A stretch of DNA of 64,000 bases from Variovorax paradoxus (GTDB lineage Bacteria > Pseudomonadota > Gammaproteobacteria > Burkholderiales > Burkholderiaceae_C): NCBI RefSeq assembly GCF_024734665.1, contig NZ_CP102931.1, positions 4,710,001 to 4,774,000 of the forward strand, read 5' to 3'. Of this stretch, positions 2,295 to 30,908 are shown piece by piece (position 1 is the first letter of the stretch; the number at the start of each line of letters is the position of its first letter). Below the pieces are notes generated by a model. It did no database searches. It was not told the DNA's origin and saw only the letters and a program-made list of their open reading frames with translations. Made by a program: the position numbers and the translations under genes.

Positions 2295-2313
2295 AGCCGA
2301 TACCTTGCCTGCC

Positions 2314-3968: not shown

Positions 3969-4131
3969 CCGCCGAGTTACCGGAAACAAACTGGCGCCTT
4001 CGTGGCTCCAGCAGCGCGAAAGGAACACTTCGGTACACCCGAGGAAAGGCATGCGCGGCGCAGGGTTTAGACAGCGCTAATTGTTTGTGCGCACAATGCC
4101 GTAAACGCCCTCAACCAAAAGGAGACGGCTC

Positions 4132-4371
4132 ATGTCCATGGAATTTCTACGGGTTATCGCCGAGCAGAAATTGCCATACGTTATTCACACGCCGGCTGAC
4201 ATCGACAGGCTGCGCGTGCTGCGTGCGGCAGAGTTGGTGACCGCCTTCATTCCGCCTTCGGACCGCGCCCCCGATGCGCGCGCGATCCGCCAGTTGGCCC
4301 AGGTCGAATCGATCACCGCCAAGGGCAAGCTGGCACTGAACAAAGCTACTTCGGCATTCATCGAGCTCTAG
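4132..4371 (+). CDS. Small protein of unknown function (79 aa)
   Basis: A 79-residue protein I do not assign to a family. It has a strong ribosome-binding site (AAAAGGAG at 4117-4124, seven bases before the ATG) and normal high-GC codon use, which argues that it is real. The sequence is soluble, with a predicted mixed helix/strand character: VIHTPADIDRLRVLRAAEL near the start and AKGKLALNKATSAF near the end. No membrane segment, signal peptide or cysteine is present. It stands alone: 163 bp separate it from the App1-like gene and 480 bp separate it from tssB. Confidence 0.7.
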   Translation: MSMEFLRVIAEQKLPYVIHTPADIDRLRVLRAAELVTAFIPPSDRAPDARAIRQLAQVESITAKGKLALNKATSAFIEL

Positions 4372-4851
4372 CAAGGCGCCCCCGCGGCTTCGCACGAAGC
4401 CCGCGACGTTTGCGCCATTGACGCAGCCCCGCGCTGCGCTCACCCGGGTTCCCCGGGTCCTCCATTCCAGTTACACATCGCGCCGTCCCGCGCACGCGGG
4501 AGCACGCGCGCGATAGCACCGCCCCCGCCTTCCTGTCATTGAACTTTGGTCCGATGCGCCAGCCGGCGCGTCTGCCTAGCATTCGGCTACCCACTTGCGT
4601 GATAAATCACTCATTTGTGTAACTTTACAAAGCTCAGGTACTTGTTTTCATTGAGTTTTGTCCACCGCAAACGGGACCCCTCCCCAATTCTGGGGATTGT
4701 TAGCAAATATCTCGATTTGTATCTTCCATCCGTCTTTGATGCATGCCGGGACTGCAACGGCAACGGACCGCGCACCGCCCCAACCAGGCGACGAGCGTCG
4801 AGAAATTTCAACGTGTGTTCTTGTCAATTCAACCTTTTCTGAGAGCGAAAA
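4372..4851 (+). promoter_or_regulatory. Intergenic region upstream of the T6SS operon
   Basis: This 480-bp gap holds no convincing gene. The first half is very GC-rich and contains a perfect inverted repeat, ACCCGGG-TTC-CCCGGGT, at 4442-4458, which could end transcription of the preceding gene although no T-run follows. From about 4590 the sequence becomes clearly AT-richer than its surroundings, with a small dyad TGTAA-CT-TTACA at 4618-4629. This is the only sizeable non-coding gap before the 26-kb secretion block, so the T6SS promoter most likely lies here. I do not see a sigma-54 -24/-12 element. Confidence 0.5.
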
Positions 4852-5445
4852 ATGTCGAATAGCCTGCAAAACTGGGTAGGACGCAATCGTCCGCCGCGCG
4901 TCCAGATCACCTATGACGTGGAGATCGGCGACGCCATCGAAAAGAAGGAGCTGCCGCTGGTCGTGGGCCTGCTGGCCGACCTGTCGGGCCAGCCCGCACA
5001 GCCGCTGCCGAAGCTCAAGGAGCGCCGCTTCGTCGAAATCGACCGCGACAACTTCGATGAAGTTCTGGGCAACATCACTCCCCGCCTCGACCTCTCGGTG
5101 CCCGACACCATGAAGGGCGAAGGCAACCTGAAGATCGAACTGAGCTTCAAGGAATTCAGCGACTTCCACCCCGAAGCCATCGTTGACCAGGTGCCCCGCC
5201 TGGCCAAGCTGCTCGAAGCCCGCCAGCAACTGCGCGACCTGCTCGCCAAGCTCGACGGCAACGACGAACTCGACGACCTGCTCGAGCGCGTGCTGCTGAA
5301 CACCGAAGACCTGAAGACGGTCCAGAGCCAGGCCAGGGCCGAAGCCGGCAGCGCGCCAGCGCAAGCCGCCCCGGCCGCAGCCGCAGCACCGCAAGCGGCT
5401 GCGGAAACCCAATCGTCCCCCGAAGCCGAAGCACCGGCAGCGTGA
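4852..5445 (+). CDS. tssB: T6SS contractile sheath small subunit TssB (VipA)
   Basis: Pairs with TssC to form the cytoplasmic contractile sheath that drives the Hcp tube out of the cell. The N-terminus (SNSLQNWVGRNRPPRVQITY) and the following EIGDAIEKKELP, VVGLLADLSG and RRFVEIDRDNFD blocks are characteristic of the family. The length is 197 residues, slightly longer than usual because of an Ala/Pro/Glu-rich tail after about residue 163. It is the first gene of the operon, 60 bp before tssC. Confidence 0.97.
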   Translation: MSNSLQNWVGRNRPPRVQITYDVEIGDAIEKKELPLVVGLLADLSGQPAQPLPKLKERRFVEIDRDNFDEVLGNITPRLDLSVPDTMKGEGNLKIELSFKEFSDFHPEAIVDQVPRLAKLLEARQQLRDLLAKLDGNDELDDLLERVLLNTEDLKTVQSQARAEAGSAPAQAAPAAAAAPQAAAETQSSPEAEAPAA

Positions 5446-5505
5446 TCAACCACGCCGGCCGCAGCCCTTCGGGCGCAATCCGGCAACTTTTGAATGGTGA
5501 TAGAG

Positions 5506-7005
5506 ATGGCCAACAAATCCAAAGCCGCTGAAGCCGGCAGCGCAGCAACCACCGTCACAACCAGTGACCTCGGTCTGCTCGACAAGATCGTCCTCGAAGG
5601 CAACATGACGACCGAGCCTTCGCAGGGCGCCTACGCGAAGAAGCTGATCGGTCAGCTGGCTTCGCAGATCCTCGACGAAGGCATGAAGACCAGCCCCGAC
5701 AAGGGCGTGGTCACGCTGATCAACGAGCGCGTCGCCGAAATCGACCGCCTGCTGACCGACCAGCTCAACGCGATCCTGCACGCCCCCGAGTTCCAGGCCC
5801 TCGAAGCCTCCTGGCGCGGCCTGCACGACCTGGTGACCGGCACCGAGACCGGCAGCAACCTGAAGCTGCGCCTGCTCAACGTGAGCAAGAAGGACCTGCT
5901 GAAGGACCTGGAGACCGCCGTCGACCACGACACCAGCGTGCTCTTCAAGAAGATCTACGAAGAGGAATACGGCACCTACGGCGGCCACCCCTATTCGCTG
6001 CTGATCGGCGACTACTACTTCGGCCGCCACCCGCAGGACATCGCCCTGCTGGAGCGCATCTCCCGCGTGGCCGCCGCCGCGCACGCGCCCTTCATTGCAG
6101 CCGCCGCGCCCGCCCTGTTCGACTTCAAGTCGTTCACCGAACTCGGCATTCCGCGCGACCTGTCCAAGACCTTCGAGAGCGCCGAGCTCGCCACGTGGCG
6201 CGGCTTCCGCGAATCGGAAGACTCGCGCTACGTGTCGCTGGTGCTGCCGAGCTACGCAGCCCGCCTGCCCTACGGCGCCAAGACCATTCCCGTCGAGAAC
6301 TTCAACTACGAAGAAGACGTGGACGGCACCGACCACGGCAAGTACCTGTGGGCCAACGCGGCCTACCAACTGGGCCTTCGCATCACGCAGGCTCACTCGC
6401 TGTACGGCTGGACCACGGCCATCCGCGGCGTCGAAGGCGGCGGCAAGGTCGACGGCATGGTGGCCCACGCCTACAAGACGGACGAAGGCGACATCGCCCT
6501 GAAGCCGCCGACGGAAGTGACCATCACCGACCGCCGCGAAAAGGAACTGAGCGACCTGGGCTTCATCGCCATCGTCAACTCCAAGGGCTCGAACACCGCG
6601 GCCTTCTTCGGCGGCCAGACCGTGAACAAGCCCAAGGTGTACGACAAGGATTCGGCCAACGCCAACGCGGCAGTCTCGGCTCGCCTGCCCTACATCCTGG
6701 CGGCCTCGCGTTTCGCGCATTACCTGAAGGTGATCGTGCGCGACAAGATCGGCAGCTTCCAGACGCAGGCCGACATGCAGAAGCACCTGAACAACTGGGT
6801 TGCCAACTACGTGCTGGTGAGCCCCTCGGCGCCGCAGGCCATGAAGGCCAAGTACCCGCTGAGCCAGGCCCGCGTGGACGTGACCGAAGTTCCGGGCAAG
6901 CCGGGCTCGTACCGCGCCATCGCCTTCCTGAAGCCGCACTTCCAGCTCGAAGAACTCTCGGCCTCGATCCGCCTGGTGGCCGACCTGCCGGCTGCTGCCG
7001 CCTGA
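5506..7005 (+). CDS. tssC: T6SS contractile sheath large subunit TssC (VipB)
   Basis: Large sheath subunit, interlocked with TssB and disassembled by ClpV after contraction. The 499-residue length fits the family. Recognisable blocks include FQALEASWRGLHDLV, VLFKKIYEEEYGTYGG, the PFSLLIGDYYF-like segment and RLPYGAKTIPVENFNYEE. The ATG at 5506 (MANKSKAAEAG) is preferred over an in-frame ATG four codons upstream because a weak GATAGAG sits just before it. The downstream gene is hcp, the usual order tssB-tssC-hcp. Confidence 0.97.
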   Translation: MANKSKAAEAGSAATTVTTSDLGLLDKIVLEGNMTTEPSQGAYAKKLIGQLASQILDEGMKTSPDKGVVTLINERVAEIDRLLTDQLNAILHAPEFQALEASWRGLHDLVTGTETGSNLKLRLLNVSKKDLLKDLETAVDHDTSVLFKKIYEEEYGTYGGHPYSLLIGDYYFGRHPQDIALLERISRVAAAAHAPFIAAAAPALFDFKSFTELGIPRDLSKTFESAELATWRGFRESEDSRYVSLVLPSYAARLPYGAKTIPVENFNYEEDVDGTDHGKYLWANAAYQLGLRITQAHSLYGWTTAIRGVEGGGKVDGMVAHAYKTDEGDIALKPPTEVTITDRREKELSDLGFIAIVNSKGSNTAAFFGGQTVNKPKVYDKDSANANAAVSARLPYILAASRFAHYLKVIVRDKIGSFQTQADMQKHLNNWVANYVLVSPSAPQAMKAKYPLSQARVDVTEVPGKPGSYRAIAFLKPHFQLEELSASIRLVADLPAAAA

Positions 7006-7067
7006 TCGCCCCCTTCATTCATCTGCATCGACAGACGAACCAACAGATTCACTGAAAGAACATTCAC

Positions 7068-7550
7068 ATGCCTATCTATCTCAAGATCCCAGGTGTCACC
7101 GGCCAAACCCAGATTGAGGGCCACAAGGACGAACTGGAAGTCCAGAGCTTCCAGTTCGGCGCCGGCCTTGCCGTGACGGCGGGCACCTCCAACCAGGAAC
7201 GCACCGCGGGCAAGCCCAGCTTCTCCGAAATCACCGTGACCCGCACCAGCGACTCGGCCACGCCCCAGCTGCTGCAGAAGCTCGCCGGCGGCGAGGTGTT
7301 CGCGGGCGACACCATCATCACCTTCCCGCGCGAAGACAAGAGCGGCCTGCTGCCCTTGATGGTCGTGACCCTGACCGACGTCATCCTCAGCGGCCTCTCG
7401 GTGTCCAGCGGCGGTGACCTGCCGCAGGAAAGCGTCTCCCTGAACTACGCGGCCATCAAGGTCGAGTACACGAAGCAGAAGGAAGAAGGCGGCCAGGAAG
7501 GCATCGCACCGTTCGGCTGGGATCTCTCGAAGAACGTCGCGGTCGCATGA
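7068..7550 (+). CDS. hcp: T6SS inner tube protein Hcp (TssD)
   Basis: Forms hexameric rings that stack into the tube propelled by the sheath; it can also carry small effectors in its lumen. The 160-residue protein starts MPIYLKIPGVTGQTQIEGHK and contains the FQFGAG segment, ITVTRTSDSATPQLL and the SSGGDLPQESVSLNYAAIKVEY segment that define Hcp. There is no C-terminal effector extension. A GAAAG sequence precedes the ATG. Confidence 0.97.
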   Translation: MPIYLKIPGVTGQTQIEGHKDELEVQSFQFGAGLAVTAGTSNQERTAGKPSFSEITVTRTSDSATPQLLQKLAGGEVFAGDTIITFPREDKSGLLPLMVVTLTDVILSGLSVSSGGDLPQESVSLNYAAIKVEYTKQKEEGGQEGIAPFGWDLSKNVAVA

Positions 7551-7579
7551 CGGCTCGACGCTGACACCCGGCGCCTACC

Positions 7580-8041
7580 GTGTCCGAACTCATCAAAGGG
7601 GGCGTCGCGCCCCTGTTCGACCGGCTGGCGTCGGCGCCGTCCGAGCACGCCCGCGGCGCTGCTCATCTCGAAACGATGGAGTCCTTGCAGGACTCCATTG
7701 GTCGTGAGCTGCGCCGCCTGTTCAACACGCGCTCGCCGCTGTCGGCCTCCGACTATGCGCAGGGCAGTGGCACGGTGCTGGAGTACGGCATTCCGGATTT
7801 CTCCGCGCTCAGCGCGCAGAACGCCGCCGACTTGCAGCAGCTGGCTGCCACGCTGCGCCAGGCGGTGCAGCGCTACGAGCCGCGCCTGACGGACGTGAGC
7901 GTGCAAGTGAGCGCCACGCCCAACCGGCATGAAGTGGCGCTGGTGCGCATCGGCGCGCAGGCGCGGGCCGGGCTCGCGCTGCGCCACGTTGATTTCGAAA
8001 TGCTGCTCGGCACGCCCGACAGCCTGATGAAGATCGCCTGA
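7580..8041 (+). CDS. tssE: T6SS baseplate protein TssE (gp25-like)
   Basis: Baseplate wedge component related to phage T4 gp25, which nucleates sheath polymerisation. The 153-residue protein contains the expected ESLQDSIGRELRRLFNTRSPL block (residues about 34-54) followed by GIPDFSALS and the RYEPRLTDVSV segment, all typical of gp25-like proteins. Translation begins at GTG 7580, since no ATG is available near the conserved N-terminus. The stop at 8039-8041 is one base away from the tssF GTG start. Confidence 0.95.
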   Translation: MSELIKGGVAPLFDRLASAPSEHARGAAHLETMESLQDSIGRELRRLFNTRSPLSASDYAQGSGTVLEYGIPDFSALSAQNAADLQQLAATLRQAVQRYEPRLTDVSVQVSATPNRHEVALVRIGAQARAGLALRHVDFEMLLGTPDSLMKIA

Positions 8042-8042
8042 C

Positions 8043-9824
8043 GTGTCCGACATCCAGCACAGTGACCTGCTGCAGTACTACAAGCGCGAACTGTCCTATC
8101 TGCGAGGACAGGGGTCGGACTTCGCCCAACGCTATCCCAAGGTCGCCTCGCGCCTCTCGCTGCACGGCGGCGAATCGCTGGACCCGCACACCGAACGGCT
8201 GATCGAGTCGGTGGCCTTCCTGTCGGCTCGCGTGCATCGCGACCTCGACCAGGAATTTCCCGACGTCGCCTACGCGCTGCTCGACAACCTCTGCCCGTCG
8301 CTGGTGCAGCCGCTGCCCTCGATGTCGGTGGCGCAGTTCGGGCTCGATCCGGCGCAGGGCAAGGTCACGGCGGGCTTTCGCGTGCCGCGCCACACCATGC
8401 TGCATGCGAGGACGCAGGCCACGCAGTCGCAGGAATGCCGCTTCCGCACCGCATGGGACACCGTGCTGTGGCCGCTGCGCATCGCGCACGCCGCCATCGA
8501 CGCCGACGCCGTGCTGCGACTCAGGCTCGAATGCAATACCGAGGCCGACTTCTCCGAGCTGGAGATCGACAGCCTGCGCATCCACCTGCAAGGCGACTGG
8601 ATGACCACGATGCCGCTGTACGACGCGCTGGTGTCGGGCGTGAAGTCGGTAGGCGTCACCCCCGAAGGCGGCGCGCTGCAGATGCTGCCGGCCGACGCGT
8701 GGCGCGAAGTCGGCTTTGCCGAAGGCGAAGAAGTTCTGCCGCAACCCGCCAACGCACAGCCCGCCTACGGCCTGCTGCAGGAGTACTTCGCGTTTCCGCG
8801 CAAGTTTCATTTCTTCGACCTGCATCACCTGCGCTCGCGGCTGGGCGGCGGGCGAAGCTGCGAGCTGGTGTTCCAGCTCGACCGCACCACCAGGGTGCTG
8901 CGGCACATCGACGCCGACAACTTCCAGCTCGGCTGCACGCCCATCGTCAACCTGTTCCCGCGCGTGAGCGAGCCGCTGGTGATGGACCAGCGCCACTACG
9001 AATACATGCTGGTGCCCGACCGCCAGCGCGACGCGACCACCGAGGTGCATTCCATCGTCTCGGTGATCGCCTCCGACCCGGACGCCGACAAGCCTGTCGA
9101 CGTGCCGGGCTTCGCCGCGCTGGGCCACGTGGACGGCGCACAGGGCGCGCAAGGCGGTGCGGTGTTCTGGGCCGCGCGGCGCGAGCCCTGCCTGCGCCAG
9201 AACATTCCCGGCACCGACGTCTTCCTGTCCTTCGTCGACCAGGGCAAGACACACAGCCGGCCCGCGCAACCCGTGGTCTATGCCCACCTGCTGTGCACCA
9301 ACCGGCGGCTGGCCGAGCAAGTGCCCGTGGGCGCGCGCCTTGTGGCCGAAGGCCCATCGCAGCCCACGCACGTGCGCTGCCTGTACGAACCCACCGCGCA
9401 GCGCGATCCGCCGCTGGGCAGCGAAACGCTGTGGCGGCTGGTGTCGCTGCTCACGCTCAACCACCAGTCGCTGGTTGACGGCTCCACCGGCCGCGAGCAG
9501 TTGCGCGAGATGCTGCTTCTGTTCGCCTCCGACAGCCGGCGCGACCATGCGCAGATCCGCGGCATTGCCGGGCTCTCTGCGCGCGGCGTCACCGCGCACG
9601 TGGGCACCGAAGCCTGGCGTGGCTACTGCCGCGGCACGCAGGTCACGCTCGAATTCGAGGACGACGCCTTCGTCGGCGGCTCCCCTCTCATGATGTCGGC
9701 CGTGCTGGCGCGCTTCTTCGCGATGTACACCTCGGTGAACTCCTTCGTTCGCCTCGTGGTGCGCAACGGCGAAGAGGTCAGAAAACAGTGGGCTCCGATG
9801 ACGGGCCGGCAGGTGGTTCTGTGA
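8043..9824 (+). CDS. tssF: T6SS baseplate protein TssF
   Basis: Baseplate wedge subunit that forms the core of the baseplate with TssG and TssE. The 593-residue length is typical. The N-terminus carries the family hallmark LLQYYKRELSYLRGQGSDFA and then HTERLIESVAFLSARVHRDLD; the C-terminus has the GGSPLMMSAVLARFFAMYTSVNSF-like region. The GTG start at 8043 sits one base after the tssE stop, and the stop codon overlaps the tssG GTG, so tssE-F-G are translationally coupled. Confidence 0.96.
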   Translation: MSDIQHSDLLQYYKRELSYLRGQGSDFAQRYPKVASRLSLHGGESLDPHTERLIESVAFLSARVHRDLDQEFPDVAYALLDNLCPSLVQPLPSMSVAQFGLDPAQGKVTAGFRVPRHTMLHARTQATQSQECRFRTAWDTVLWPLRIAHAAIDADAVLRLRLECNTEADFSELEIDSLRIHLQGDWMTTMPLYDALVSGVKSVGVTPEGGALQMLPADAWREVGFAEGEEVLPQPANAQPAYGLLQEYFAFPRKFHFFDLHHLRSRLGGGRSCELVFQLDRTTRVLRHIDADNFQLGCTPIVNLFPRVSEPLVMDQRHYEYMLVPDRQRDATTEVHSIVSVIASDPDADKPVDVPGFAALGHVDGAQGAQGGAVFWAARREPCLRQNIPGTDVFLSFVDQGKTHSRPAQPVVYAHLLCTNRRLAEQVPVGARLVAEGPSQPTHVRCLYEPTAQRDPPLGSETLWRLVSLLTLNHQSLVDGSTGREQLREMLLLFASDSRRDHAQIRGIAGLSARGVTAHVGTEAWRGYCRGTQVTLEFEDDAFVGGSPLMMSAVLARFFAMYTSVNSFVRLVVRNGEEVRKQWAPMTGRQVVL

Positions 9825-10825
9825 TCGAACAACTCACCGCCCGCCCGCAGGACTTCAACCTGTTCCAGGCCATCAGCCTGCTCGAGCGCGCCGCGCCCGA
9901 GGCGGTGCCCGTGGGCCGCTCGCAAGGCCCGCGCGAACGCGAGGCCGTGCGGCTGCATGCCTTCGTCACGCTGGCGTTCGAAGCCAGCGACGTGCGCGAA
10001 GTCGGCACCGATGCATCGACCGGCGAGCCCTTCGAGCTCACCACGCCCGCCCTTTCGCTGGGCGGCAGCGGCGGCCCGCTGCCGATGCCCTTCACCGAGA
10101 TGCTGCTGGAGCGCCGGCAGCAGCGCGACCACGCGACGGGGGACTTCCTCGACATCTTCAATCACCGCTTCCTGGCCTTCCTGTACCGCAGCCGCCGCAA
10201 GCACCACGTGGCGCTCAACCCGCAGTCGCCTTCGAGCTCCACGCTGGCGTCCACGCTCGATGCGGCCAGCGCACTGGGCCTGCGCGCCGGCGTGCGCGCA
10301 CCCGACGGCTCTGCCCTGTGGCTGCGCCATGCCGGCCTGCTCGGCGGCGCGCCGCGCGGCATGACCGCGCTGCTGGCCCTGCTGCGTGACCGCCTCGGCG
10401 TGCAGGTGCACGGCACGCAGTTCCGTGGCCGCTGGCTCGCGCTGGAGCCCGATGCCTCGGCGCGGCTGGACATGCGCACGCCGCTGGGCGGCGGCGCCGT
10501 GCTTGGCAAGCGCGTGTGGGACCAGGGCGCCGGCATCCGCCTCACCTTCAGCAACCTGAGCCAGCAGCGCCTGCGCGCCCTGCTGCCACGCGGTGCCGAC
10601 CATGCGCTCGCCAAATGGCTGGTGCGCCGCTTCATTCCGCAAGACCTGAAGGTCGAGATGGAGCTGAGCCTCGCTCCCACCGAGTTGCGCAGCAGCGTGC
10701 TCGGCGCCGCGAACCCGATGCGACTGGGCTGGACCTCGTGGGTCGCGGGCCCGACCTTTCGCGGCGCACTGCCGCCCGTTCATCACACCCTGACCAGCGA
10801 CGGCGGCGACGCGCCCGGCGCCTGA
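9821..10825 (+). CDS. tssG: T6SS baseplate protein TssG
   Basis: Baseplate wedge protein partnering with TssF. The GTG at 9821 overlaps the tssF stop as GTGA and gives a 334-residue protein beginning IEQLTARPQDFNLFQAISLL, which matches the family N-terminus; an earlier in-frame GTG at 9788 would add 11 unconserved residues. Further family blocks are the DIFNHRFLAFLYRSRRKHH segment and the VRRFIPQDLKVEMEL segment near the C-terminus. Confidence 0.95.
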   Translation: MIEQLTARPQDFNLFQAISLLERAAPEAVPVGRSQGPREREAVRLHAFVTLAFEASDVREVGTDASTGEPFELTTPALSLGGSGGPLPMPFTEMLLERRQQRDHATGDFLDIFNHRFLAFLYRSRRKHHVALNPQSPSSSTLASTLDAASALGLRAGVRAPDGSALWLRHAGLLGGAPRGMTALLALLRDRLGVQVHGTQFRGRWLALEPDASARLDMRTPLGGGAVLGKRVWDQGAGIRLTFSNLSQQRLRALLPRGADHALAKWLVRRFIPQDLKVEMELSLAPTELRSSVLGAANPMRLGWTSWVAGPTFRGALPPVHHTLTSDGGDAPGA

Positions 10826-10839
10826 CCCGAACACTACTC

Positions 10840-13572
<2,733 letters not shown>

Positions 13573-15522: not shown

Positions 15523-15535
15523 ACGATTGAACGCC

Positions 15536-16261
15536 ATGGCACTTCCTTCCCTCCCAACAAAAGACCTGGCCTCGGTGCCCGAGGCCGTGGTGCGCGAAGC
15601 CCTCGACGGTGCAGGCCAGACGGTGGTGCGCGCGTCGTTCCTGGGCGACGTGCCGCACGGGCCGATGCAGGTGTTCTCGGCCGCGGGCAAGCCCGCGATG
15701 GAGGCTTCTTATCAAGCCGGCGTGCCGCACGGCGCCATGCGCCTGTTCGACGAACGCGGCCAGCTGCTGCAGGAAACGCAGCGCTTCGGCGGCGTGGCCG
15801 AAGGCACCACGCGCAGCTACTACCCCAGCGGCAAGCTCATGCAGACGCACCAGCACGTGCGCGGCACGCTGCACGGCGATGCCGTGGCATACGCCGAGTC
15901 AGGCGACGTCACGGCGCGGCTGCGCTACGTGGCCGGCCGCCTCGAAGGCGAAGCCACCTACTACAACGAAGGCCGCATGGTGCGGCGCGAGCAGTACCGC
16001 GCCGGCCTGCTCAACGGTGAAGTGCTCGACTACCTGGCAAGCGGCGGCGTGGCGCAGTCGTCCACCTACGTGGCCAGCGTGCTGCACGGCCCGCTGCAGC
16101 GCTTCTGGCCCAACGGGCAGCTGATGGAAGAAATCGCCTACCGCCAGGGCAAGCCGCACGGCAACCCGCGCCGCTTCGACCAGACGGGCCGCGAGGTCGT
16201 GGAGACGGCCGCATCGCCGGGCTTCATGAAGAGCCTGGAAAAAATCGTGAGGGGAGGCTGA
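15536..16261 (+). CDS. MORN-like (YwqK-type) repeat protein in the VgrG-PAAR interval
   Basis: A 241-residue protein built almost entirely of short repeats with the pattern G-x-x-H/E-G-x-x-x-x-Y/F-x-x-x-G-x-L, visible about eight times (for example GVPHGAMRLFDERGQLLQE, SYYPSGKLMQTHQHVRGTLHG and FWPNGQLMEEIAYRQGKPHG). This is the MORN-variant (MORN_2, YwqK-like) repeat, which folds as a beta-meander and usually mediates binding. There is no signal peptide or membrane segment. It occupies the place where T6SS clusters often keep an effector, adaptor or chaperone, between vgrG and the PAAR-like gene, with 3 bp to the next start. ATG at 15536 is chosen. Whether it is an adaptor, immunity protein or effector cannot be told from sequence. 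Confidence 0.8.
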   Translation: MALPSLPTKDLASVPEAVVREALDGAGQTVVRASFLGDVPHGPMQVFSAAGKPAMEASYQAGVPHGAMRLFDERGQLLQETQRFGGVAEGTTRSYYPSGKLMQTHQHVRGTLHGDAVAYAESGDVTARLRYVAGRLEGEATYYNEGRMVRREQYRAGLLNGEVLDYLASGGVAQSSTYVASVLHGPLQRFWPNGQLMEEIAYRQGKPHGNPRRFDQTGREVVETAASPGFMKSLEKIVRGG

Positions 16262-16264
16262 GCC

Positions 16265-16654
16265 ATGGGCATGCACGTCTGCATGGGGGCCACGCTGCAG
16301 TGCAGCTTCGGCGCCGCGCCTTCCAACCTCGTGGTGCTGCCGGTGAACGCGGTGGTCACCAGCGGCGTGCCGGCCGCCACCATCATGGACAACAAGCCGA
16401 TCGCCAACATCCTGCCCTTCGGCACCTGCAACAGCATGTCGAACCCGATGGTGGCCGCAGCCACCGCCGCCGCGCTCGGTGCCTTCACGCCGATGCCCTG
16501 CATTCCGGTGACGGCCGCGCCCTGGGCACCCGGCTCGCCCACGGTGCTGGTCGGCAGCATTCCCGCCCTGCAGGACAGCTCGAAGCTCGCATGCAACTGG
16601 GGCGGCGTGATCCAGGTCGTCGTGCCGGGGCAGTTCACTTCAATGGTCCCCTGA
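16265..16654 (+). CDS. DUF4280 PAAR-like spike-tip protein
   Basis: Small (129 residues) protein of the DUF4280 family, considered PAAR-like and expected to cap the VgrG spike. Visible hallmarks are MGMHVCMGATLQCSFG at the N-terminus, the DNKPIANILPFGTC block, and PCIPVTAAPW with GGVIQVVVPGQ near the end, including several conserved cysteines. There is no C-terminal toxin domain. It lies three bases after the MORN-repeat gene and is followed by the amino-acid module. Confidence 0.88.
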   Translation: MGMHVCMGATLQCSFGAAPSNLVVLPVNAVVTSGVPAATIMDNKPIANILPFGTCNSMSNPMVAAATAAALGAFTPMPCIPVTAAPWAPGSPTVLVGSIPALQDSSKLACNWGGVIQVVVPGQFTSMVP

Positions 16655-16683: not shown

Positions 16684-16911
16684 ATGTCTCAATACGTTTT
16701 CACGATGAGCTCCCGCATGGTCGCCATCACGGTGACCTGCCTGGTGCTGCTGTGCGTCCTGCTGTTCCTGATGGGCGTGGAGATCGGCAAGCTGCTGGCG
16801 CCCGCGCCCATCGCTGCTGCTCCTGCCGTCACGGCGCCCGCGCCAATGCAGTCGCCCTCCCCCGCACCTGCCCCCGCAGCCGCGCCGGCTCCCGCCGCCT
16901 CCACCCAATGA
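16684..16911 (+). CDS. Small single-pass membrane protein of the T6SS insert
   Basis: A 75-residue protein with one transmembrane helix (residues about 10-36, MVAITVTCLVLLCVLLFLMG) and an Ala/Pro/Ser-rich tail of about 35 residues. I recognise no family. The topology suggests a short cytoplasmic start, one membrane pass and a flexible tail, perhaps in the periplasm. It starts 29 bp after the PAAR-like gene and its stop overlaps the ATG of the binding-protein gene (ATGA), so it belongs to the same transcription unit and looks like the first gene of the inserted amino-acid module. Confidence 0.7.
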   Translation: MSQYVFTMSSRMVAITVTCLVLLCVLLFLMGVEIGKLLAPAPIAAAPAVTAPAPMQSPSPAPAPAAAPAPAASTQ

Positions 16912-17936
16912 CCAAAGTAGATCCAAGCATGTCGAACAACACACGACACCTCACGGGCATGCACAGCGCGCTGCGTCGCCTCGCCCTTCCGACATTGCTG
17001 GCGCTGGCCGGCCTCTGCGCGGGCGGCCCCGCTGGCGCGGCAGGCGAACGGCCCGTGGCGCAGGGCGTGATCGCCGTGCCCGCCGCACTCGCTGCGCCTG
17101 CCGCCGCAGCGCCCGCGTTTCCGGTCGAGCCGGCAGCCCCCGTCGCGCCACCGGCGCCCGTGCTCACCAACGGCCTCGTGCGCGTGCCCGACGGCCGCCT
17201 GCTCGCGCCCGACATCGCGCGCATCGTGACGCGCGGCGAGCTCGTGGTGGCCATGCTCAAGGTCGACACGCCGCCGTTCTTCTTCTTCGACGACGCCGGC
17301 CAGTGGACCGGACTCGAGGTCGGCCTTGCGCAGTCGCTCGCCAAGGAGCTGGGCGTGAAGCTGCGCTTCAACCGCGAGGCCGGCACCTTCAACGCGGTGG
17401 TCGACCTGCTGGCCAACGGCCAGGCCGACCTGGCCATCAGCAAGCTGTCGCGCACGCTGGCGCGCACGCAGACCATTGCGTTCAGCGACGCCTACCTCAC
17501 GCTGAACCACTCGCTGATCTTGAACCGCATGAAGTTCGCGCAGATCTCGCACGGGCGGCCTCTGCCGGAGGTCATTCGCAACTTCAACGGCAGCATCGGC
17601 GTGATCGCCAAGTCGTCTTTCGCGGACTACGCGCGCACCAACTTCCCGCACGCCAAGGTGCAGGAGTTCCCGACCTGGAACGAGGTGCTGGTGGCCCTGC
17701 ACAAGGGCGAGATCGTGAGCGCCTACCGCGACGAGTTCGAGGTCAAGCGCGTGCTCAAGGCCGACCCGACCGTGTCGCTCGTGCTGCGCACCGTGACGCT
17801 GAAGGATCTTGAAGACACGCTGGGCATCGGCGTGGCCGTGACCGACACCACGCTGCTGGCCTACGTCAACCAGTTCCTCGCCCAGCGCACCGAGAAGCTG
17901 GACATCCAGAAGGTGCTGCAGGCACTCGACCGCTGA
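16908..17936 (+). CDS. Periplasmic amino-acid-binding protein (SBP_bac_3 type) in the T6SS locus
   Basis: A 342-residue protein with an N-terminal hydrophobic segment (RRLALPTLLALAGLCAGG, probable signal peptide or anchor), an Ala/Pro-rich linker of about 55 residues, and a family-3 solute-binding domain from about residue 105. The domain has the ELVVAMLKVDTPPFFFFD start, the WTGLEVGLAQSLAKELGV block and an AR-x7-FSDAYL segment, where binding proteins contact the ligand backbone. Family members bind polar or acidic amino acids. No ABC permease or ATPase gene accompanies it; instead DAACS-type transporters follow, which is unusual. The long linker could let it sit at a distance from the inner membrane. 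ATG 16908 overlaps the previous stop; ATG 16929 is an alternative. Confidence 0.82.
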   Translation: MTKVDPSMSNNTRHLTGMHSALRRLALPTLLALAGLCAGGPAGAAGERPVAQGVIAVPAALAAPAAAAPAFPVEPAAPVAPPAPVLTNGLVRVPDGRLLAPDIARIVTRGELVVAMLKVDTPPFFFFDDAGQWTGLEVGLAQSLAKELGVKLRFNREAGTFNAVVDLLANGQADLAISKLSRTLARTQTIAFSDAYLTLNHSLILNRMKFAQISHGRPLPEVIRNFNGSIGVIAKSSFADYARTNFPHAKVQEFPTWNEVLVALHKGEIVSAYRDEFEVKRVLKADPTVSLVLRTVTLKDLEDTLGIGVAVTDTTLLAYVNQFLAQRTEKLDIQKVLQALDR

Positions 17937-17959
17937 GCCGCAAAGAACACGCACCCATC

Positions 17960-19234
17960 ATGAATTCCTCCAAGCTCTACGCCTTCGTCCTCAACCCCTG
18001 GGTCGTGATCATCAGCCTCGGGGCCGGCGTGGCCTTCGGCATGCTCGCGCCCCCGCTCGCGACCACCCTGAGTTTCGTGGGCGACATCTACGTCGACCTG
18101 CTGAAGATGATCACGCTGCCCTTCATGGTCTCGGCCGTGATCTTCAGCCTGCAGCGGCTGTTTCGCGACGGCGGCACGGCCAGCCTGCTGGGGCGCGTGG
18201 CGCTGGTGTTCCTCGCGTTCTCGGCCTTCGTGGCCATTGCCGGCGCGGCCACGCTGCTGCTGCTTCGCCCCGGCGAGAACCTGCCGGCCAGCACCATGCA
18301 GACCTTCGGCCAGATCGTCGGCGGCGACCTGAGCGCCAGCGACACGGCCATGAGCCTGCGCGGCACCGACGAAGTGAAGAAGACCGCCAGCTTCGCCGAC
18401 ATGCTGGTGAGCCTGGTGCCCGCCAACATCTTCACGGCACTGGCCAACGGCGACACGCTCAAGACGCTGGTGTTCGCGCTGCTGTTCGGCCTGGCGGTGG
18501 GGCACGTGCCCACGCGCATTTCAGACGGCCTCACGCAGGCGCTCGAAACCGTCTATCACGCCTGCCAGACGCTGATGCGCTGGCTGAGCTTTCCACTGCC
18601 GGTGGTGCTGTTCTGCATGAGCGCGGCGCAGCTGGGCAAGACGGGCATAGAGCCGCTGCGCGCGATGGGTGCCTTCGTGCTGGCTTTCCTGGTGGTGTCG
18701 ACGGTGCTGCTGGCGGTGGCCTGCGTGATCATCTGGAAGCGCTCCAACGGCACGCTGGGGCAAACGCTCAACGCCATGCGCGGCCCCTTCGCGCTGGCGC
18801 TGGCCACGCGCAGCAGCGCCACCTGCATGCCGATCATGATCGAGAGCCTGGTCACGCGGCTGGGCTTCGCGCGCTCGCGGGTCGAGCTGCTGGTGCCGCT
18901 CACGGTGTCGCTGCTGCGCATCGGGCCGGTCGTGTACTACGTGTGCGCCACGCTTTTCATCGCGCAGATCTACGGCCGCTCGCTGTCGCCGGTGGAAATC
19001 GGCATCGTGCTCACCTCCTCGGTGCTCGCGGGCTTTGCCTCGGCGGGCATGACGGGGCTGGTGACGGTGTCGCTGATCGGCATGACCTGCACCTACCTGG
19101 GCCTGCCCTTCGAGGCGGCGTTCATCCTGTTCCTGGCGGTGGACCCGGTGTGCGACATGCTGCGCACGCTGGTGCTAGTCATCGGCAACACCGCGGCCGT
19201 CGCTGTCGTGTGCCCCCGGCCACTGAAGATCTAG
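17960..19234 (+). CDS. DAACS-family (glutamate/aspartate-type) transporter with altered cation site, copy 1
   Basis: A 424-residue multi-pass inner-membrane protein of the dicarboxylate/amino acid:cation symporter family. Helical hairpins are recognisable: HP1 TRSSATCMP at 283-291, HP2 GFASAGMTG at 358-366, and the TM8 signature with D395, D399, R402 and T403. R402 corresponds to the arginine that recognises the acidic side chain and D399 to the aspartate that holds the amino group in GltPh. However, the TM7 NMDGT motif is replaced by LRIGP (319-323), and the TM8 asparagine and final aspartate used for sodium are L406 and N410. It may therefore bind an amino acid without normal sodium coupling. 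It lies between the binding protein and the racemase. Confidence 0.85.
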   Translation: MNSSKLYAFVLNPWVVIISLGAGVAFGMLAPPLATTLSFVGDIYVDLLKMITLPFMVSAVIFSLQRLFRDGGTASLLGRVALVFLAFSAFVAIAGAATLLLLRPGENLPASTMQTFGQIVGGDLSASDTAMSLRGTDEVKKTASFADMLVSLVPANIFTALANGDTLKTLVFALLFGLAVGHVPTRISDGLTQALETVYHACQTLMRWLSFPLPVVLFCMSAAQLGKTGIEPLRAMGAFVLAFLVVSTVLLAVACVIIWKRSNGTLGQTLNAMRGPFALALATRSSATCMPIMIESLVTRLGFARSRVELLVPLTVSLLRIGPVVYYVCATLFIAQIYGRSLSPVEIGIVLTSSVLAGFASAGMTGLVTVSLIGMTCTYLGLPFEAAFILFLAVDPVCDMLRTLVLVIGNTAAVAVVCPRPLKI

Positions 19235-19247
19235 AGGGCACGCACTC

Positions 19248-19982
19248 ATGTCACGCATCGGCGTTCTCGGCGGCATGGGCCCATCGGCAACGGTGGACTT
19301 CATGGAAAAGATCATCCAGCTCACTCCCGCCACGCGCGACCAGGAGCACCTGCCGGTGATCGTGGCGAACCTGCCGCACGTGCCGGACCGCTCCAGCGCC
19401 ATCCTGGGCACGGGGCCCGACCCGCTGAGCTCGCTGCTCGCGGGCATTGACGTGCTCAACGACATCGGCGTGGGCGTGATCGCGATTCCCTGCAACTCGT
19501 CGCATCACTGGTATGCGCAGATGGTCGAGCACAGCCGGGCACCGGTGATCCACATCGCGCAGTCGTGCGTGGCCGCCATTGCCACGGCACCGAACGAACG
19601 GCCGGTGCGGGTGGCGGTGCTCGCCACGCGAGGCGCGCTGGCCTCGGGCTTCTACCAGCAGGCGCTGCGCGAACGCGGCATCGACTTTCTCGTGCCCGAC
19701 GCCACGACCGGCCAGGACCACGTGGACGCCTGCATTCGCGCCGTAAAGGGCGGCGACGTGCAGGCCGGCGCGGCAGCCTTCGAGCTTGCGCTGGAAGCAC
19801 TGGCCGCCACCGGCGCCACCGCGGTGATCATGGGCTGCACCGAATTGCCGATCGCCGCGAAGGCCGCGAACGCCGCCGGGCACAGCGCCCTGACGCTGAT
19901 CGACAGCTCGCTGGAGCTGGCCCGTGCCACGGTCGCTTTCGCACTCGACAAGGGATGGAACAAGCCGACATGGGTTTCCTGA
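19248..19982 (+). CDS. Aspartate/glutamate-type amino acid racemase in the T6SS locus
   Basis: A 244-residue cytosolic enzyme of the PLP-independent Asp/Glu racemase superfamily, interconverting L- and D- forms of an amino acid by a two-cysteine mechanism. The N-terminal IGVLGGMGPSATVDFMEKI, the first catalytic cysteine C82 in PCNSSHHW, and the second, C197, in MGCTELP are all present, so it is probably active. The CNSSH variant in place of the common CNTAH leaves the substrate open (Asp, Glu or another amino acid). It starts 13 bp after transporter 1 and overlaps transporter 2, tying it to amino-acid transport within the secretion operon. Confidence 0.9.
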   Translation: MSRIGVLGGMGPSATVDFMEKIIQLTPATRDQEHLPVIVANLPHVPDRSSAILGTGPDPLSSLLAGIDVLNDIGVGVIAIPCNSSHHWYAQMVEHSRAPVIHIAQSCVAAIATAPNERPVRVAVLATRGALASGFYQQALRERGIDFLVPDATTGQDHVDACIRAVKGGDVQAGAAAFELALEALAATGATAVIMGCTELPIAAKAANAAGHSALTLIDSSLELARATVAFALDKGWNKPTWVS

Positions 19983-21436
19983 CGCGCATGTCCCACAGCC
20001 TGCTCGCCCTGCTTCTGTGCATGGCGGCAGGCGGTGTCGTGGGCGTCTATGCGCCCATGGTGGGCGACGTGGGGTACACGGCGGCGCAGGTCTACCTGGC
20101 AATCGTGAGCATGGCGGCCATTCCGCTGCTGGTGGTCGCCACCTTCTTCGGCCTGCGCCAGACCATGGGGCTGCCCTTTCCGGGACGGCGCATCGCGATG
20201 ATCGCGGGCCTTGCATTGCTGCTGGTGATGAGCTGCGCGGGCACCGGGCTGGCGCTGGGCTGGATCAACGCGCCGGGCGCGCACCTGGACGCCGAATCGC
20301 GCGAGCACCTGGGCGAACTGGTGCAGCAGGCCGGCGACGGCGGCGACCTCGAAATGCGCCTGCACGACAGCAGCACGCAGGCAACGGCCATCGAGCGCCC
20401 CCGCGTCACGCTGGTGCCCGACAACTTCTTCCGCGTGCTGGTGGAGGGGCGCTCGCTGGGCATCCTGTCGTGCGCGCTGCTGTTCGGCCTGGCCTTTGCC
20501 GCGCTGGCGCGCACGCAGCACGCCGCGCTCAACCACATGTTCGAGGGCATCTACCGCACGCTTGAACTCATCATCGCGCGCGCCAACATCCTGCTGCCGG
20601 TGGTGGCCTTCGGAATGTCGGCGCACGTGTTCGCGCAGACCGACGCGGTGACGATCCGCGCCATGAGCGGCTTCCTGCTGCACTTCGTGGCGCTGGTGGC
20701 GCTGCTGGCCGTGGGCGCCATCGCGGTGATCCACCGGCGCGGCAACCAGCCGCTGGCCGACGTGCTGCAGCACCTGAAGACGCCGATGCTGGTGAGCCTG
20801 ATGTCGTCGAGCACCACGGCCAGCATTCCGCACACCATCGAGGCGATGAGCGCGCGGCTGGGCTTCAGCCGCGGCATCGTGGAGCTGGTGGTGCCCACCG
20901 CCTCGGTGTTCCTGCGCGCGGGCTCGGCGCTGTACTACGTGCTGCTGGCGCTGTTCGTGGCCAACCTCTACGATCGCACGCTCAGCGCGGCCGACATCGG
21001 AATGATCGGCATGGGCGCGACGGTTGCGGCCTTCGCCTCGGCGGGCAACAACAGCCTGACCAACGTGGGCTACGCGGGCATCGTGCTGGCGATGCTGCAG
21101 CTGCCCATCGAGGCCGCGCTGGCGCTGTTCCTGGCCATCGACCTGATCTGCGAGGGGCCGCGCAACCTGCTGACGCTGCTGGCCACCTGCGTGCTGATTT
21201 CCGTCGTATCGGCGGGCCTGCCGTCGGAGCGTGTCACGGCGCCTGCCGCAGACGTGGCACCCGCGAAGCCGCTGCGCTTCGTGCTCACGCGCGGAAACGT
21301 CATGCTGCTGGCGGGCTGCAGCGTGCTGGCCTCCCTGCTGATTTTGCTGATGGGCATTGCCGTGGGAGCGCGGCAGGCGCAGCCCTCTGCCGCGTATGCG
21401 ACTTCGGCCGCGGCGAACCCTGGAATCTCGCGATGA
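19970..21436 (+). CDS. DAACS-family transporter with altered cation site and extra C-terminal helix, copy 2
   Basis: A second, divergent DAACS-type membrane protein (488 residues with the start at ATG 19970; ATG 19955 is possible). It shows HP1 MSSSTTASIP at 278-287, HP2 AFASAGNNS at 354-362 and a TM8 block with D391, E395, R398. The NMDGT site is LRAGS (315-319), the same LR-x-G change as in copy 1, and the TM8 sodium residues are T402 and T406. The substrate aspartate has become glutamate (E395) but the arginine is kept. After the usual fold there is an extra hydrophobic helix (about 444-466) and an Ala/Ser-rich tail, absent from copy 1. Start overlaps the racemase end, and the stop overlaps tssJ (ATGA). 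Confidence 0.82.
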   Translation: MGFLTRMSHSLLALLLCMAAGGVVGVYAPMVGDVGYTAAQVYLAIVSMAAIPLLVVATFFGLRQTMGLPFPGRRIAMIAGLALLLVMSCAGTGLALGWINAPGAHLDAESREHLGELVQQAGDGGDLEMRLHDSSTQATAIERPRVTLVPDNFFRVLVEGRSLGILSCALLFGLAFAALARTQHAALNHMFEGIYRTLELIIARANILLPVVAFGMSAHVFAQTDAVTIRAMSGFLLHFVALVALLAVGAIAVIHRRGNQPLADVLQHLKTPMLVSLMSSSTTASIPHTIEAMSARLGFSRGIVELVVPTASVFLRAGSALYYVLLALFVANLYDRTLSAADIGMIGMGATVAAFASAGNNSLTNVGYAGIVLAMLQLPIEAALALFLAIDLICEGPRNLLTLLATCVLISVVSAGLPSERVTAPAADVAPAKPLRFVLTRGNVMLLAGCSVLASLLILLMGIAVGARQAQPSAAYATSAAANPGISR

Positions 21437-21909
21437 ACCGCACAAAGACTTCTCTCTTCAGATGGATCGCCGCCCTGCTGCTGCTCTCGCAGCTGGCCGC
21501 ATGCGGCAGCCTGTTTCCCAAGGGCACGCGCGTGAACTGGAGCGAGCTCACGCTGTCGGCCTCGCCCGACGCCAACCAGAACAGCCCGGTGGCGGTCGAC
21601 GTGGTGATGGTGCTCGACGACACCATGCTCGCCCGCATCACCGAGCTCACCGCAGCCAAGTGGTTCGGCGCGCGCGCCGACCTGCAGAAGACCTTTCCGC
21701 AGAGCCTGTCGTACCTCTCGTGGGAGCTGGTGCCGGGCCAGACGATTCGCGTGCCCTCCAGCGCCTTCGGCTCGCAGCGCGTGGCGGCCGTGCTCGTCTT
21801 CGCGAACTACACCACACCCGGCGCCAATCGCGTGCGGGTGGAAGACCTCAAGGGCGCCGTTGTCGCCCGCTTCGACGTTCAAAGCTTCGACGTGTCGACC
21901 ACACGCTGA
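21433..21909 (+). CDS. tssJ: T6SS outer-membrane lipoprotein TssJ-like
   Basis: Lipoprotein that anchors the TssL-TssM membrane complex to the outer membrane. The 158-residue protein has a lipoprotein signal peptide with lipobox LAAC (C24) and a short beta-sandwich-like domain: SPVAVDVVMVLDDTMLARI and YLSWELVPGQTIRVP match TssJ-type proteins. Overall similarity to the best-known TssJ proteins is low, so the assignment rests on topology, size and its place directly before tssK-tssL-tssM. ATG at 21433 overlaps the stop of transporter 2. Confidence 0.82.
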   Translation: MNRTKTSLFRWIAALLLLSQLAACGSLFPKGTRVNWSELTLSASPDANQNSPVAVDVVMVLDDTMLARITELTAAKWFGARADLQKTFPQSLSYLSWELVPGQTIRVPSSAFGSQRVAAVLVFANYTTPGANRVRVEDLKGAVVARFDVQSFDVSTTR

Positions 21910-29516: not shown

Positions 29517-30908
29517 ATGCCGTTCAAGAGCGCTGACGTCGAAGAGGTCCTGGTCCAGGGTGCCCACATGAGTGGAGACCGCAACTCCATCGCTACGGCC
29601 CTCAAGCTGAAGGCGAAGCTGGGGGTGCTGATCATCTACAGCCCGTCCTTGCGCGTCCAGGGACTGGAGCTGGAGAACTTCTACAAATCCATCGTAGATG
29701 CGAGCCGCGTGGCCTCTATTCAGATCATTCATTCGTCCGATCCGTCTCTCGCGGCGGGCGAAAAGTGCATGAAGGATGTCTACCGGCTGGTAAGCAGCAG
29801 GGATTTCAAGAATCTTCCCGGCTTCATGAAGACGATGATTCCATTCCCTATCCGCATGTGCTCCGCGACCTTCGGCACGGGCGTCATTGCGGATGCCTTC
29901 CAGAAAGATGCAGGGAGCACACGAAACAGTACGCGGGCCCTCTGGCGACTGGACAAGGTCCCGAAGAAAACGGGTCCCGGCGTCATCGACAAGCGCCCGG
30001 ACGTCCGCAAGTTCCTGACGGATCGAGGCTTTCTCCAGAAACGCGCCTATGTCTTCCTGTTCGCGAAGGAGGGCCCGAGAAGGGCCGAGAAGGCGCATCA
30101 CTTCACGTCGATCCTGACGTGGCGCATGCTCCATGAGGAGATCGGCCGCTCGTCTTCCGTCATTCCCGTGGCCGCAGGCGACTACATCGGCCTGCGTACG
30201 CTGCCCACCCTGGCAGAGTTCTGGAAAGACACCGACTGGACCCAGCTGTGGACCGATGTCACGGTCGATCCGCGCTCCGCGCAACTGGGCCTGTGGTGCC
30301 TGCTGGCCGAGGAATACACGGGCGTGTCGATCATCGGCATGCGCAGCGGGATGATCGAAGTCCCCGCGCTGCTCGGCATCCGCACGCTCTACCTCGAGGA
30401 AAAATTCAACCAGCAGGCGGAACGCATGGCCAAGTGGATCGGCAAGGTGCCCGGATTCGAGCGCCAGGTCGTGGACAAACCGGCCGGCATCAAGCAGCAG
30501 CTTTACTGGCGCAACGAGAGCGCAAAGCGCTACCAGCCAAGCGCCGTCTCCAGCCACGCCGCGAGCAACAGCGCACATCTGGCCGGCATGGTGCAGGGCT
30601 TCCGGCTGGGAAGGCCATTCAGGGGACAGACGAGGTTTACGCCCGCGCCCGTTCTGAACGAGCCTCAGCGCAAGCCGACAGAGGCACGCACGCGGCCCCA
30701 GCCGACCTTGCTGGCAAACACGCGCCTGCCCGCCCCGATAGATGCCGCGAACCTGCAACTCGCCAAGTCGGAGTTCGACAGGATCGTGACTTGGGCCAAG
30801 GCCACACCGGTGCCCACCGGCGCGACCACGAGCGTGCACGGTTCGGTCGCCAGAGTGGTCGAGGTCCAGGAGCCGCAAGAAGCGCCAAAGTCAGCCACAA
30901 ATCTCTAG
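29517..30908 (+). CDS. Protein of unknown function at the end of the T6SS operon
   Basis: A 463-residue protein I do not recognise. It follows tssA after 63 bp, has its own ribosome-binding site (GAAAGG, nine bases before ATG) and is the last plus-strand gene of the block. Residues 1-350 look globular and soluble; the segment SIIGMRSGMIEVPALLGIR (about 275-293) followed by TLYLEE resembles the donor-side region of GT-B glycosyltransferases or sugar epimerases, but only weakly. The last 100 residues are low-complexity, rich in Pro, Thr, Ala and Arg, and probably disordered. No signal peptide or membrane segment is present. Position suggests a T6SS accessory protein or an effector; base composition is somewhat lower in GC than tssM. 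Confidence 0.75.
   Translation: MPFKSADVEEVLVQGAHMSGDRNSIATALKLKAKLGVLIIYSPSLRVQGLELENFYKSIVDASRVASIQIIHSSDPSLAAGEKCMKDVYRLVSSRDFKNLPGFMKTMIPFPIRMCSATFGTGVIADAFQKDAGSTRNSTRALWRLDKVPKKTGPGVIDKRPDVRKFLTDRGFLQKRAYVFLFAKEGPRRAEKAHHFTSILTWRMLHEEIGRSSSVIPVAAGDYIGLRTLPTLAEFWKDTDWTQLWTDVTVDPRSAQLGLWCLLAEEYTGVSIIGMRSGMIEVPALLGIRTLYLEEKFNQQAERMAKWIGKVPGFERQVVDKPAGIKQQLYWRNESAKRYQPSAVSSHAASNSAHLAGMVQGFRLGRPFRGQTRFTPAPVLNEPQRKPTEARTRPQPTLLANTRLPAPIDAANLQLAKSEFDRIVTWAKATPVPTGATTSVHGSVARVVEVQEPQEAPKSATNL

Follow-up and report, generated by a model that had tools for sequence, protein, structure and literature searches.

Why should a type VI secretion system (T6SS) operon carry a periplasmic amino-acid-binding protein, two proteins of the glutamate-transporter family and an amino-acid racemase? 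The question is raised by a 64,000-nucleotide stretch of the Variovorax paradoxus genome (assembly GCF_024734665.1, contig NZ_CP102931.1, positions 4,710,001 to 4,774,000), called the window here and numbered from its first letter. The host genome is a single 7.29-Mb contig, and the nearest named loci with the same module are also from Variovorax. Between a PAAR-like gene and tssJ, five genes on the same strand encode a small membrane protein (SMP), a substrate-binding protein (SBP), a first transporter-like protein (DAACS1), a racemase and a second transporter-like protein (DAACS2):

16265..16654, + strand: PAAR-like protein (DUF4280; Pfam PF14107, 124.4 bits), upstream edge of the insert
16684..16911, + strand: SMP, 75 amino acids, single membrane helix predicted by eye, Pro/Ala-rich tail
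16908..17936, + strand: SBP, periplasmic amino-acid-binding protein (SBP_bac_3, Pfam 71.7 bits), with signal/anchor and Pro/Ala-rich linker
17960..19234, + strand: DAACS1, SDF (glutamate-transporter) family (Pfam PF00375, 203.3 bits)
19248..19982, + strand: two-cysteine amino-acid racemase (C82, C197; Asp_Glu_race PF01177, 139.7 bits; NCBIfam CuyB, 231.2 bits)
19970..21436, + strand: DAACS2, second SDF protein (PF00375, 132.7 bits), with an extra SMP-like C-terminal helix (residues 441-470)
21433..21909, + strand: tssJ (lipoprotein; weak profile matches and position), downstream edge, ATGA overlap with DAACS2

Three junctions overlap, namely SMP/SBP (ATGA), racemase/DAACS2 (13 nt) and DAACS2/tssJ (ATGA), while gaps of 23 nt and 13 nt separate SBP from DAACS1 and DAACS1 from the racemase. 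The surrounding genes match VipA/TssB, a ClpB/ClpV-like AAA protein, DotU/TssL, IcmF/TssM and ImpA/TssA and thus form a T6SS operon. An initial annotation, made from the letters of the window alone, had described the five co-directional genes, their three overlaps and the ATGA link into tssJ, and its coordinates and overlaps proved exact. It had further proposed that the module is built into the T6SS operon and that the cell senses, imports or converts an amino acid, perhaps to the D form, as part of T6SS function.

The answer that we tentatively favour, at somewhat below an even chance, is that the cassette represents a branch of the glutamate-transporter family that depends on a binding protein, probably works without sodium and was recruited into the T6SS operon. 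An amino-acid cassette that also exists alone would have entered the operon. Its periplasmic SBP would capture an alpha-amino acid, perhaps an acidic one, and pass it to DAACS1, probably together with DAACS2. Both DAACS proteins would be elevator-type SDF proteins in which an arginine occupies the former Na+/substrate NMD loop, so that they would need no sodium and act either as exchangers or as uncoupled carriers. The racemase, an optional partner, would interconvert L and D forms inside the cell, and the SMP-like tail may tether DAACS2 to SMP or its surroundings; the cassette may also affect the T6SS.

We re-examined 53 T6SS-cluster loci, comprising 46 from a scan of genome contigs with a DAACS2 profile plus L053-L057, L119 and L134; this count excludes L058, L059 and the search loci L001-L006, L060 and L061. 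Both transporters were visible in 47 loci, and since the order SBP, DAACS1, (racemase), DAACS2 recurs in all 47, it is not a product of chance. Persistence of the module near T6SS loci in relatives, on which the initial annotation had staked its case, is thus borne out. SBP was present in 47/47 modules, whereas the racemase was absent from seven (L045, L046, L048, L049, L050, L054 and L057). SMP was found in 40/40 loci showing PAAR, SBP, both DAACS proteins and TssJ (39 by script and L043 by open reading frame). VgrG, PAAR, TssJ or TssK lay on the same stretch in 52 loci, the exception being L057, which has a weak TssA-like match and TssK on another contig of its genome. The order reported for Paraburkholderia phymatum T6SS-b downstream of vgrG (YwqK, PAAR, hypothetical protein, SBP, symporter, racemase, symporter) is found in the window as well, and the P. 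phymatum plasmid locus (L119) is among the 53.

Co-occurrence was assessed in samples of 250 genomes of the order and 200 of the family, with thresholds of 1e-60 for TssK and 1e-70 for DAACS1. TssK and DAACS1 selected the same genomes in 3/4 cases in the order sample and 7/7 in the family sample (9/10 distinct genomes), and no genome of either sample had DAACS1 without TssK. This zero is threshold-dependent, since an interrupted DAACS1 relative is present in G263, a genome of the family sample in which TssK was not matched. In a class sample of 274 genomes TssK was matched in the window's own genome only, and within the genus the cassette is patchy, with DAACS2 in 5 of 25 genomes. We conclude that the cassette forms an integral part of this T6SS operon and is inherited together with it. 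The sole T6SS of this type seen free of the cassette (G147, locus L053) shows the same T6SS order and retains an SMP-like open reading frame between PAAR and TssJ. SMP would thus belong to the T6SS operon, with the SBP-DAACS-racemase block either inserted after it or lost in L053; judged from this one locus, SMP is probably an older part of the operon. On well-supported branches of the DAACS1 tree, racemase presence and absence require at least three changes, which the tree cannot polarise as gain or loss because the outgroup branches are very long. Mirror-tree correlations (r 0.43-0.84) were discarded since the DAACS1 matrix was polluted by DAACS2 matches in loci without DAACS1.

To compare binding and coupling sites, DAACS sequences were aligned to a solved family member, with positions given in GltPh numbering. 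The duplicates L058 and L059 (of L017 and L033) were removed from the residue counts (46 DAACS1, 47 DAACS2) and retained in the coupling-set counts (48 and 49 rows), while L059 was also retained among the 43 racemase and 45 SBP rows. The background comprised 55 SDF proteins, one of which (L110) doubles as host control, after removal of L087, which had first been counted as background and is a module member instead (best tblastn match DAACS1, 54%). The NMD loop of TM7 is gone in both DAACS1 and DAACS2. Window DAACS1 carries R320 at position 311, L319 at 310 and L406 at 401 while keeping D399, R402 and T403; window DAACS2 carries R316 at 311. Among DAACS1 sequences, position 310 is Leu or Phe in 46/46, 311 is Arg in 45/46, 312 is never acidic and 401 is Asn in 1/46. 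DAACS2 proteins have Arg (46/47) or Lys (1/47) at 311, no Asn at 310 or 401 and no acidic residue at 312. Background proteins showed a basic residue at 311 in none of the 55 cases, N310 in 53 and N401 in all 55.

NMD is the nexus for Na1-3 and substrate, and N401 holds the main-chain carboxylate of the substrate; R397 selects acidic over neutral amino acids, and D394 selects acidic amino acids over dicarboxylates (PMC12668577; site residues are also given in PMC4693270). DAACS1 retains D394 (44/46), R397 (46/46) and T398 (45/46), which argues for an acidic amino acid, not a dicarboxylate, as its substrate; DAACS2 mostly has E394/R397/N398. Two sets of coupling residues have been published (PMC12668577). 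The sodium set (Ser or Thr at 92-93, N310, Met or Ser at 311, and Asp or Glu at 312 and at 405) was found in 0/48 DAACS1 and 0/49 DAACS2 rows compared with 23/30 of the class background. The proton set (hydrophobic 92, L311, N405) was likewise found in 0/48 and 0/49 rows, compared with 4/4 other SDF proteins of the host. As neither set is present, both DAACS proteins are probably sodium-independent. The closest relative of DAACS1 in the host genome is DAACS2 (3e-50; next 4e-21). Both match PF00375 only (cut-off 27.9 bits) and not TRAP- or TT-type subunits, and GltPh entries ranked first in Foldseek searches with their structural models (query TM-score 0.73 for DAACS1, an AlphaFold model of pTM 0.64, and 0.60 for DAACS2).

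The soluble parts of the cassette have kept their sites. Aligned SBP sequences show R186 in 45/45 and D275 in 44/45 rows, which we take to be the ligand-contact Arg and Asp of the family. As first annotated, both catalytic cysteines of the racemase are present (C82 and C197, in 43/43 rows), and with its profile match this makes it a pyridoxal-phosphate (PLP)-independent, Asp/Glu-type enzyme. It passes the NCBIfam cut-off for the cysteate racemase CuyB (231.2 versus 190 bits), as do the racemases of L118 and L139, but this name is possibly over-broad and the activity is a predicted one. Overall, the cassette appears suited to binding and interconverting an amino acid, and to this extent the initial proposal is supported, whereas the production of D-amino acids as its core job is not.

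DAACS2 also carries an additional C-terminal helix (residues 441-470) that matches SMP. Comparison of an SMP profile built from 44 rows with 104 windows drawn from the two DAACS alignments ranked five windows first, all of them overlapping the DAACS2 tail (best E-value 6e-10), while the next-best window outside the tail reached 1.6e-3; all E-values are for single comparisons. As a control, 472 single-sequence windows from ten other cluster proteins scored 19.2 at best (TssM) versus 31.7 for the single-sequence tail. The tail may thus tie DAACS2 to the T6SS-linked SMP or its neighbourhood.

Cassettes of similar make-up also occur where no T6SS gene is in view. Searched with DAACS1, plasmids yielded four records, two from Paraburkholderia, one from Cupriavidus and one from the alphaproteobacterium Gemmobacter aquarius (L118). 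The latter encodes SBP, SDF, racemase and SDF with no annotated T6SS gene in its 25-kb stretch; identities to the window are 48% (SBP), 34% (SDF), 40% (racemase) and ca. 23% for the second SDF protein (D2), which has no SMP-like tail. Two small open reading frames with a common 'MWG' motif (by eye) precede this cassette (L118:10402-11053) and have no Pfam or NCBIfam match; an NHLP/Nif11 identity, suspected by eye, was dropped as no family matched. Searching a phylum sample of 378 genomes with the Gemmobacter SDF gave matches in eight, comprising three T6SS modules (the window's own genome, G056 and G1033), one contig edge (G899/L132) and four loci (G768/L129, G782/L130, G784/L131 and G984/L133, with L131 and L133 from the same genus) with no T6SS match within 12-20 kb. 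An SBP search of 199 family genomes returned the seven T6SS-module genomes and G263. In the latter (L139:806-11261), HlyD, ABC1 and ABC2 genes scoring above the NHLP-bacteriocin exporter cut-offs precede the cassette, separated from it by a single Peripla_BP_6 gene; the cassette comprises SBP, an SDF gene with 52-54% identity to DAACS1 and a racemase. Its SDF gene is interrupted, falling into two pieces in different frames, perhaps through an assembly error. Since the distance of this SDF from the window's matches that of the deepest T6SS members, the L139 cassette may derive from a T6SS module.

SBP adjoins SDF in all six loci that show no T6SS gene and have a visible SDF neighbourhood (L118, L129, L130, L131, L133 and L139). 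This adjacency was not selected for, because five of these loci were found by SDF and one by SBP. For comparison, 59 further SDF loci were covered with up to ca. 1.5 kb of flank, and two of them (L085 and L078) showed weak SBP-like matches. SBP and carrier genes overlap in L139 and L130 and are 1 nt apart in L118, compared with the 23-nt gap without overlap in the window. The racemase accompanies four of the six cassettes (L118, L131, L133 and L139). All eight SDF proteins read from these loci carry Arg at 311, as do 59 of the 60 sequences related to the Gemmobacter protein, which were seen without gene context. In L129 (178-11841) two SBP-SDF pairs of opposite orientation lie between an HD/GAF protein and a guanylate-cyclase/TPR protein. 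The L133 cassette (1923-11049) follows an RpiR/SIS regulator gene and has a peptide-type SBP_bac_5 gene and a MurA-like gene (by eye only) nearby; this neighbourhood hints at cell-wall amino acids and was not seen to be shared by L131 of the same genus.

Several observations weigh against the favoured reading. N401 is lost together with the cation residues, so that DAACS1 and DAACS2 could be poor carriers or sensors, and R397 is lost in 3/47 DAACS2 proteins. Confidence of the structural models is moderate (pLDDT 65.7 for DAACS1 and 70.6 for DAACS2). Outside the T6SS the residue pattern is looser: R397 is lost in Gemmobacter D2 and in the L129a, L130, L131 and L133 SDF proteins, D394 is lost in L129a, L129b and L130, whereas L129a and L130 retain N310 and L129b retains N401. 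An acidic substrate therefore does not generalise. Gemmobacter D2 is paired with DAACS2 by position alone, because it matches DAACS1 (4e-9) better than DAACS2 (8e-4). The SDF protein of L132, at a contig edge, carries Pro at 311, and no SBP is visible there; no SBP-SDF fusion gene was seen, although no systematic search for fusions was made.

Some of these points favour the main rival, which we consider possible rather than probable, namely that SBP and the two SDF proteins act as a sensor (transceptor) that reports an extracellular amino acid to the T6SS with little or no transport. Loss of the cation residues and N401, the match between the DAACS2 tail and the T6SS-linked SMP, and the position of L129 between HD/GAF and guanylate-cyclase-domain proteins would all fit a sensor. 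Further, Hug et al. proposed that the symporters sense dicarboxylates, with T6SS-b reporter expression highest on citrate (PMC8356804). On the other hand, a pure sensor would need neither the conservation of D394, R397 and T398 in T6SS DAACS1 nor the invariant active site of the racemase, and Pfam finds no known signalling domain in the five cassette proteins.

An ordinary uptake cassette, for example for D-glutamate or other acids from lysed prey, that is co-expressed with the T6SS and mechanically unrelated to it is an unlikely explanation. The six loci with similar cassettes and no T6SS gene in view, as well as the regulator gene ahead of the L133 cassette, speak for such a passenger, but co-occurrence with this T6SS subtype in 9/10 TssK-positive genomes, the fixed position before tssJ and the SMP-like tail all argue against it. 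Least probable is production of D-amino acids for peptidoglycan editing or self-protection from T6SS toxins, for which the invariant cysteines and the binding of D-aspartate by the canonical relative GltTk (structure title 6r7r) could be cited: as a core function it is disfavoured because the racemase is absent in 7/47 modules despite the presence of SBP and both transporters there, the DAACS1 tree requiring at least three changes, and because cassettes, four of them with a racemase, exist away from the T6SS. The precedent invoked for it in the initial annotation is weak as well, since RacK, which we take to be a PLP-dependent lysine racemase acting on peptidoglycan, is of a different type than the two-cysteine, Asp_Glu_race-family enzyme of the window.

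The remaining genes around the cassette hold some further observations. The PAAR-like protein scores 57.7 bits against the IglG-like NCBIfam profile, under the cut-off of 200. TssJ (21433-21909) is so divergent that it misses the cut-offs of both libraries (Pfam 16.6 bits, NCBIfam 18.7 bits), and it is named from its position and the lipoprotein-like start of the protein. A MORN_2 (YwqK-like) gene (15527-16261) between vgrG and PAAR has the lowest mean identity (47.5%) of all cluster genes seen in at least two loci. A gene of 463 amino acids after tssA (29517-30908) has no Pfam or PHROGs match and was found by tblastn in one fetched locus only (L007), although many stretches extend ca. 2 kb past tssA. 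PHROGs likewise gave no match for SMP or the MORN gene. No ABC ATPase/permease pair of the kind used for TagQRST-type T6SS activation was found between PAAR and tssJ, the remaining genome not having been searched for TagQRST. A sigma-54 promoter before tssB was rejected for the window, as the -24/-12 pattern gave 70 matches, below the shuffle mean of 90.7, with a single match upstream of tssB that has two mismatches and lies on the opposite strand.

The module as a T6SS feature was already published in 2021 (PMC8356804); neither this account nor the missing cation-site residues of the two transporters had been brought up in the initial annotation. P. phymatum T6SS-b (Bphy_5986-5992) encodes YwqK, PAAR-like, hypothetical, amino-acid ABC transporter (SBP), symporter, racemase and symporter proteins. 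The same order is listed there for Variovorax, Cupriavidus, Achromobacter and others, in all 15 other environmental strains including Variovorax sp. PMC12 and a Janthinobacterium, the latter without the racemase. The authors found the occurrence of two symporters within a T6SS intriguing and knew of no earlier report of it; they named them sodium:dicarboxylate symporters, proposed sensing and considered a substrate different from that of DctA likely. In the portions of that account available to us, transporter mutants, the lost cation residues, the SMP tail and non-T6SS cassettes do not appear. What is added here is the SBP-linked, Arg-bearing SDF branch, the cassettes away from the T6SS and the SMP tail, none of which was found reported in open-licence papers, covered mostly through listings; the available text of PMC8359209 held nothing relevant and that of PMC10434147 no mention of a racemase or symporter. 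A link to TeoL and outer membrane vesicles through Cupriavidus T6SS1 was set aside, as the main text (PMC8776902) contains no symporter or racemase and the cluster is not shown to be the same.

Among transporters, the canonical SDF (DAACS) proteins GltPh, GltTk, DctA and GltP share Pfam family, fold and the D394/R397 pair mostly kept in DAACS1, but the cassette proteins differ from them by loss of the NMD loop and N401, Arg at 311 and an SBP partner gene. An ancestral uncoupled aspartate transporter (9bgz) indicates that the family allows sodium-independent aspartate binding, although with intact NMD loop and binding sites (PMC12668577). In CaiT and LAT exchangers a basic residue replaces Na+ in sodium-independent exchange (PMC6472337), which, the fold being unrelated, serves as an analogy only. 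SBP-dependent secondary transport is known from TRAP and TT systems (PMC5812351), while the membrane partners here are SDF proteins. The precedent for pairing an SBP with a secondary carrier outside TRAP is TAXI-GltS of Bordetella pertussis, where a glutamate SBP is translationally coupled to a secondary carrier that is neither TRAP nor TT and for which an elevator mechanism was proposed; it differs in pairing a TAXI SBP with Na+-coupled GltS instead of SBP_bac_3 with SDF (PMC12344293).

In conclusion, cassettes that occur both inside and away from weapon genes point to an amino-acid transporter or sensor of a little-known type. A more far-reaching version, which we regard as doubtful, would see a further, SDF class of SBP-dependent secondary transporter, based on the archetypal elevator fold, in which the loop arginine replaces the coupling cation and the pair works as an L/D or in/out exchanger, with the cassette residing in operons of two antagonistic secretion systems, the T6SS and, at a single locus, an NHLP-bacteriocin exporter, and the tail coupling amino-acid supply, for example from lysed prey, to weapon use. 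Before TAXI-GltS, only TRAP and TT carriers were known to use a soluble SBP, and it was suggested that an elevator mechanism may permit SBP use and that further classes would provide a test (PMC12344293). GltPh, an elevator carrier studied in depth, is an SDF protein, so that an SBP-linked branch of this family would allow a direct test of this proposal. Repeated loss of the NMD loop together with gain of an arginine further provides a natural experiment in ion coupling. As regards the T6SS, the finding points away from a 'sodium:dicarboxylate symporter' and toward amino-acid input within a weapon operon.

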